A stretch of DNA of 46,856 nt, taken from Candidatus Zixiibacteriota bacterium. Lineage in GTDB: Bacteria > JAAXHH01. A program made the translations under genes and the position numbers. Location: the NCBI GenBank assembly GCA_016867335.1, contig VGJU01000007.1:1-46856 (forward strand), given 5' to 3'. This document shows positions 2,357-3,780 of the stretch, one piece after another. Below the pieces are notes generated by a model that worked only from the letters and a program-made list of their open reading frames with translations, was not told the DNA's origin and made no database searches. Positions within the stretch are counted from its first letter, which is position 1. Each line of letters starts with the position of its first letter.

Positions 2357-2528
2357 GAGTCTGTATGGCTTTGCCGTTTGCCGTAATCAAGGTACGGACA
2401 GCGCCTATTTCTGTCCACCGGGAAATAGGCAAATTTCTTTACATTTTGCTGTGTCGGTCATAATTTTTTCGAGATTTTTGCATCGGCGATGACTGTGGAA
2501 GAAAATCGATCCTGTGTTCAAAAAAGAC

Positions 2529-2557
2529 TTGAAATCTAAACATAGGTTTAGTATATT
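2529..2557 (+). promoter_or_regulatory. recA promoter: TTGAAA (2529-2534), 17-nt spacer, TATATT (2552-2557), with palindrome CTAAAC-ATAG-GTTTAG (2536-2551) in the spacer; candidate LexA/SOS box
   Basis: -35/-10 hexamers at 17-bp spacing upstream of recA; 6-bp-arm inverted repeat lies in the spacer. Confidence 0.6.
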
Positions 2558-2679: not shown

Positions 2680-3780
2680 GTGGCGGCAAGCAACGGTATA
2701 GATGTAGAGCGTGAGAAGGCGTTGAGCGGGGCGATCATGCAAATCGAGCGGCAGTTTGGCAAAGGCTCGATCATGCGGCTGGGTGACGATAATCCGTTGT
2801 TTTCGGTGGAAGTTATTCCGACAGGGTCGTTGACGCTCGATCTTGCGCTGGGTATCGGCGGAGTGCCGCGCGGGCGCATCGTGGAAATCTACGGTTCGGA
2901 GTCTTCGGGTAAGACGACGCTGGCCTATCATATCATCGCCGAGGCGCAGAAACGCGGAGGCATCGCCGCGTTTATCGACGCGGAACACGCGGTAGACGCC
3001 CGGTACGCGCAGACCCTGGGGGTCGATGTAAACAATCTGTTGGTGCATCAACCGGATACCGGCGAACAGGCGCTGGATGTGGCGGAAACGCTGGTCCGCA
3101 GTGGCGCGATCGACGTGATCGTCATCGACTCGGTAGCCGCGCTTGTCCCCAAAGCCGAAATCGAAGGCGAAATGGGCGACTCACACGTAGGTCTTCAAGC
3201 GCGTCTCATGTCGCAGGCGCTCAGAAAACTCACCGCTGCCATCAGCCGGTCGCGTACCTGTCTTGTCTTTATCAACCAGATTCGCCAGAAAATCGGGGTC
3301 ATGTATGGCAACCCGGAGACGACGACGGGCGGGCTGGCGCTAAAATTCTACGCTTCCGTGCGTATAGAGGTACGCCGCGTCGGCGTGATCAAAGGCGATG
3401 AGGTCTCCGCCGGTATTCAGGTCAAGGGGTCGATCAAGAAAAACAAAATGGCGCCCCCGTTCCGCGAAGCCCAGTTCGATATCATCTATGGCGAGGGTAT
3501 TTCAAAAGAAAGCGACCTGATCGAATTGGGGGTCAACAACGGCATCATCGAAAAAAGTGGCACTTGGTTTTCCTATAGCGGCGAGCGGTTGGGGCAGGGA
3601 CGCGAAAACCTGCGTTTGTTGCTCAAAGAGCGGGTCGAGTTGGCCGCCGAGATCGAGCAAAGGGTGCGTGCCCTTTTTGCCGGCACCGGAGCCAGTGGGC
3701 TTGCCGGATCGAACGGTGCGGGCGAGGAAGAAGAGGAGTCGGCACCGGCTCCCGCCTCCGCAGGCGGACGAAAGAAATAA
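2680..3780 (+). CDS. recA: Recombinase RecA (GTG start preferred over the 2560 start in the ORF track)
   Basis: [92 protein letters not shown]; purine-rich RBS before GTG 2680. Confidence 0.97.

Follow-up and report, generated by a model that had tools for sequence, protein, structure and literature searches.

A predicted LexA box in the recA promoter of a Candidatus Zixiibacteriota bacterium and its recurrence at lexA and uvrA

The palindrome CTAAAC-N4-GTTTAG in the recA promoter of this Candidatus Zixiibacteriota genome is, with high probability, a LexA box, the operator of a canonical SOS switch in which LexA binding, repression and induction by DNA damage are all deduced from genome sequences. 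Because the same box recurs at the same spot in the lexA and uvrA promoters, it is very probably a LexA site. The motif represents a form, particular to this lineage, of the LexA boxes with N4 spacing that are known from Myxococcus and, as GAAC-N4-GTTC, from Bacillus and Actinobacteria. In the proposed switch, a LexA dimer seated on CTAAAC-N4-GTTTAG between the -35 and -10 hexamers would block RNA polymerase at recA, and the same block would act at uvrA and at lexA itself, the latter as autorepression. DNA damage would lead to RecA filaments and these to self-cleavage of LexA, by which the recA, lexA and uvrA promoters would be freed. For a deep, uncultured lineage in which no SOS box was described in the literature searched, the result supplies one that genomes support, so that the DNA-damage regulon becomes readable from sequence. 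It also bears on the open question of how LexA shifts its binding motif, as a primary LexA with a shortened helix and, in genus g2, a duplicate with a second motif occur in one order.

The window, the whole stretch of 46,856 nucleotides that was analyzed, reads exactly TTGAAATCTAAACATAGGTTTAGTATATT at positions 2529-2557 upstream of recA, a layout of TTGAAA-T-CTAAACATAGGTTTAG-TATATT (Table 1). The TTGAAA-N17-TATATT promoter proposed by the first-pass annotation was confirmed by reading the sequence and by a promoter scan, in which it was the sole sigma-70-like site in 2330-2700 (10/12 matches versus 0.3 expected from shuffles). The palindrome had been described as exactly filling the spacer; it does lie inside the 17-nt spacer (2535-2551), with half-sites at 2536-2541 and 2546-2551, but covers 16 of the 17 positions, a single T preceding it on the 5' side. 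The promoter ends at 2557, 122 nt 5' of the recA GTG, and the CTTG of its -35 region is found at the same spot or no more than two bases off in all members of the order. Farther upstream lies a second conserved element, every match to which is upstream of recA; the one genome without a match to the standard form carries a variant. This element is probably a second, upstream recA promoter outside the LexA box, and as such would probably give LexA-independent recA expression.

Table 1. Features of the recA region, in window coordinates
Feature	Position	Strand	Basis
Conserved element TTTACA-N17-TAATTT-N3-CGAGAT, upstream of recA	2438..2475	+	one match per genome in 5/6 order genomes searched
recA -35 hexamer TTGAAA	2529..2534	+	sequence; promoter scan 10/12
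Predicted LexA box CTAAAC-ATAG-GTTTAG	2536..2551	.	conservation; same box at lexA/uvrA; cross-gene matrix test
recA -10 hexamer TATATT	2552..2557	+	sequence; 93% identity, five genera
recA, 366 aa, GTG start	2680..3780	+	TIGR02012, 541.7 bits; PF00154

The first-pass annotation had made its reading depend on the presence of a lexA gene, and a canonical one is found. The genome encodes a single LexA with both domains (P0001; PF01726 and PF00717; TIGR00498 at 219.5 bits, where the cut-off is 111), in whose translation the AAG cleavage motif, the GDSM serine and the VKR lysine are all visible. Among solved structures, the best relative by sequence is that of Thermotoga maritima LexA, 3K2Z. The lexA promoter, TTGACA-A-CTAACCACATGTTTTG-TACATT, carries a box of the same type and in the same position as at recA, here in the asymmetric form CTAACC-N4-GTTKTG (CTAACC / GTTTTG). 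Genome-wide occurrences were sought by pattern searches, and a pattern joining the box to the -10 hexamer gave two exact matches in this genome, recA and lexA, both of which had been used to build it. Among the one-mismatch matches was the uvrA promoter, TTGCCT-T-CTAAACAGACGTAGAG-TATATT, located 71 nt before the uvrA start with the box CTAAAC-N4-GTAGAG.

Recurrence at DNA-repair genes, on which the first-pass annotation had also staked its claim, holds for lexA and uvrA, not in this genome alone but across the order, which was sampled in three families (f1, f2 and f3) and five genera. The box occupies the recA promoter spacer in 12/12 order genomes read, stands between the -35 and -10 hexamers of lexA in every member with that promoter in hand (the f3 copy, CTATTCAGGCGTTGTG, is degenerate), and precedes uvrA in this genome and in each of the nine f1 genomes tested. 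In the three genomes checked outside the order, neither recA nor uvrA has it upstream. The wider motif search proposed at the outset was borne out upstream of lexA and uvrA, but yielded no convincing CTAAAC-N4-GTTTAG-type box upstream of imuB/dnaE2, nor of dinB. What is found in the order amounts to the parts of a LexA-controlled SOS regulon: a LexA protein, an operator common to lexA and recA, and further repair genes with the box, namely uvrA and a Rad52-family ORF with the box upstream in one genome (G014).

When the recA upstreams of the five genera and three families were aligned on the box, the half-sites were 93% identical and the -10 hexamer likewise 93%, versus 55% for the central N4 and about 30% for the flanks. 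Across 14 boxes from recA, lexA and uvrA, positions C1, T2, A3, C6, G11, T12 and G16 are invariant, and the working consensus is CTANNC-N4-GTNNNG. The motif as originally given, CTAAAC-N4-GTTTAG, stands as the optimum form of this consensus, but the operative motif is looser, as the lexA and uvrA boxes illustrate. A matrix built from recA and lexA sites ranks the recA box first in the window (24.2 bits, with 13.4 for the runner-up), a ranking that is partly circular because the recA site is in the matrix. Training on one gene and testing on another avoids this circularity. With a lexA-only matrix, the recA box was the best site in 5/5 genera, and no more than 6 of 2000 shuffles scored equally well; in this genome it was the best site in the 250-nt upstream, and none of 2000 dinucleotide shuffles equaled it. 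The recA and lexA matrix found the uvrA box in 3/3 genera (at most 2/2000 shuffles as good). The reverse test, with a recA-only matrix, gave a convincing hit on the lexA box in 3/5 genera and missed it in g3 (277/2000 shuffles as good) and g5 (563/2000); lexA has weaker sites, which are also asymmetric.

The palindrome could be a chance by-product of an AT-rich spacer, its conservation being that of the promoter only. In its exact form, the 12-base palindrome is no more than moderately rare for a genome of 4.4 Mb, with a single copy (at recA, by pattern search of the 4.38-Mb genome), and matches at two mismatches are mostly background, with 58 for the 16-mer compared to 145 for its reversed control. 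The footprint contradicts this explanation, however, as the half-sites are conserved like the -10 hexamer and far above the central N4 and flanks, and both the occurrence of the same word in the same place at lexA and uvrA and the cross-gene shuffling tests favor a box. We therefore consider chance extremely improbable. It is also unlikely that the palindrome serves as the operator of some other regulator common to recA, lexA and uvrA, such as a Cro/CI-like or DdrO-like protein or a second S24 repressor. SOS repressors other than LexA do exist in other lineages, and in Bacteroidetes the similar-looking CTAA-N5-TTAG is read by an S24-domain SOS repressor not homologous to LexA (PMC8565304). The spacing here is that of canonical LexA boxes, N4 rather than N5, the letters match the Bacteroidetes box at 5/8 positions, and the repressor is a TIGR00498 LexA. 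Moreover, the Peptidase_S24 domain was found in only one protein of this genome, LexA P0001, whose promoter has the palindrome too in all members of the order, and the extra LexA-like frame, at C57, encodes a 77-aa winged helix without an S24 domain. That stand-alone frame (L221; C57:509-709 of this genome, G000) adjoins an integrase-like ORF and probably derives from a mobile element.

As a LexA box, the motif can be set beside those already described. The closest published box found is the SOS box of Myxococcus xanthus, CTRHAMRYBYGTTCAGS, as quoted in PMC9705874 (citing Campoy et al. 2003), where lexA and uvrA are among the LexA-repressed genes. Against the consensus as quoted there, the recA and lexA boxes each agree at 13/16 positions and the uvrA box at 14/16. 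By the same quoted consensus, both boxes are N4-spaced imperfect palindromes that start with CTA and end with AG, and a canonical LexA is present in both lineages. They differ in the right half, GTTTAG or GTTKTG in the order versus the quoted GTTCAG, and the best sites of the order are perfect palindromes. None of the six boxes compared matches the quoted Myxococcus box in full (12-14/16), the C of GTTCAG being replaced by T or G. CTAAAC-N4-GTTTAG itself was not found as a LexA box in the mostly open-access literature searched. Within that literature, the novelty proposed by the first-pass annotation holds for the motif as such and is tempered by the 13/16 positions that fit the Myxococcus box as quoted.

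The GAAC-N4-GTTC class of LexA boxes occurs in Bacillus, as CGAACRNRYGTTYG, in Actinobacteria and in others. The class has the AAC-N4-GTT core and the in-promoter position in common with the recA box. In the order box, TAAAC-N4-GTTTA, the outer G/C of the GAAC-N4-GTTC half-site is replaced by A/T. The likeness to this class noted at first inspection, in geometry but not in letters, is borne out, with 6/8 core matches for recA and 5/8 for lexA and uvrA, which places the box outside the class proper. Upstream of lexA in one distant genome (L038), TTGAAC-N4-GTTCAG stands immediately before TATATT. One of the three genomes checked outside the order (G019) has a different palindrome, TAGAC-N4-GTCTA, before the recA -10, about 112 nt upstream of recA (L081), and the words AGTAGAC/GTCTAC in its lexA upstream (L044); this palindrome is possibly another unreported LexA box.

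The LexA proteins of the order form one clade in the tree (support 100/98), have an invariant recognition helix, ISTRAAYDHL, and all share ISTRAAYDHLRAIEKKG. Their turn has one residue fewer than that of LexA in Myxococcales (STRAAYDHL in the order versus rSTNGVNDHL) and in E. coli (7ocj alignment), and this stretch aligns to 3K2Z without a gap. Three distant LexAs with the short turn (L036, L045 and L046), of which two sit on long branches, group beside the order clade (91/87); TA-type palindromes, for example GTATACAAATGTATAC, occur upstream of the corresponding lexA genes. We hypothesize that the shorter turn accompanies TA-type boxes. A broader scheme, which we offer as speculative and rather doubtful, is that a short-turn class of LexA, comprising the order and these three proteins, reads TA-type boxes of roughly (C/G)TANAC-N4-GTNTA(G/C) and not GA-type GAAC-N4-GTTC, that the turn deletion marks and perhaps caused the change of specificity, and that a LexA duplicate in a single genus later acquired a further box, CAGAC-N4-GTCTG, for its mutagenesis operon only.

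In genus g2, a second LexA heads a lexA2-imuA-imuB-dnaE2 operon (L217, 2250-2290; L219, 1830-1870; also G001, G010 and G012). The lexA2 promoter contains CAGAC-N4-GTCTG inside TTGACA..TTTTAT, and this motif lies upstream of lexA2 in 5/5 g2 genomes checked; elsewhere it does not rise above background. Duplication of lexA with divergence of its motif is a published model (PMC8565304), which a lexA2 with its own box fits. Relative to that model, the original and diverged boxes coexist in g2, and among the promoters tested each keeps to its own set.

Enrichment of the box and -10 pattern at two mismatches is modest in this genome (20 matches versus 8 in the control) and falls below the control in G002 and G015, so single loose matches are not trustworthy. 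Several further genes are leads as regulon members. The ribonucleotide reductase repressor gene nrdR has the box in its promoter spacer in f2 and f3 (L173 of G015 and L182 of G014); none was found upstream of nrdR in this genome or in f1, and nrdR was therefore rejected as a general member of the regulon. An ankyrin-repeat protein of about 95 aa has a LexA-type box upstream in two families (L065/L236, G000:C326; L166, G014:C162) and is a candidate new SOS gene. Pfam gives no match to a conserved ORF of 107 aa that lies behind two tandem box-like, half-matching sites 22 bp apart (L282, G000:C303; L283, G002:C141). With these two ORFs and nrdR, the Rad52-family ORF completes the leads. One-mismatch matches at C203, C296, C334 and C21:19727 were set aside since they appear inside longer reading frames, and a G015 ORF with a perfect box (L169), ImuB-like by eye, gave no match in Pfam. 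At C21:6361, TTGACA-A-CTAAACGCCCGTAGAG-TATAAT precedes a HicB-like ORF, in a single genome only. In f1 genomes, uvrA (L286; G000:C67 from 7248) lies in a single open frame of some 1950 codons, which contains two UvrA N-termini separated by 2.9 kb and looks like a tandem fused UvrA.
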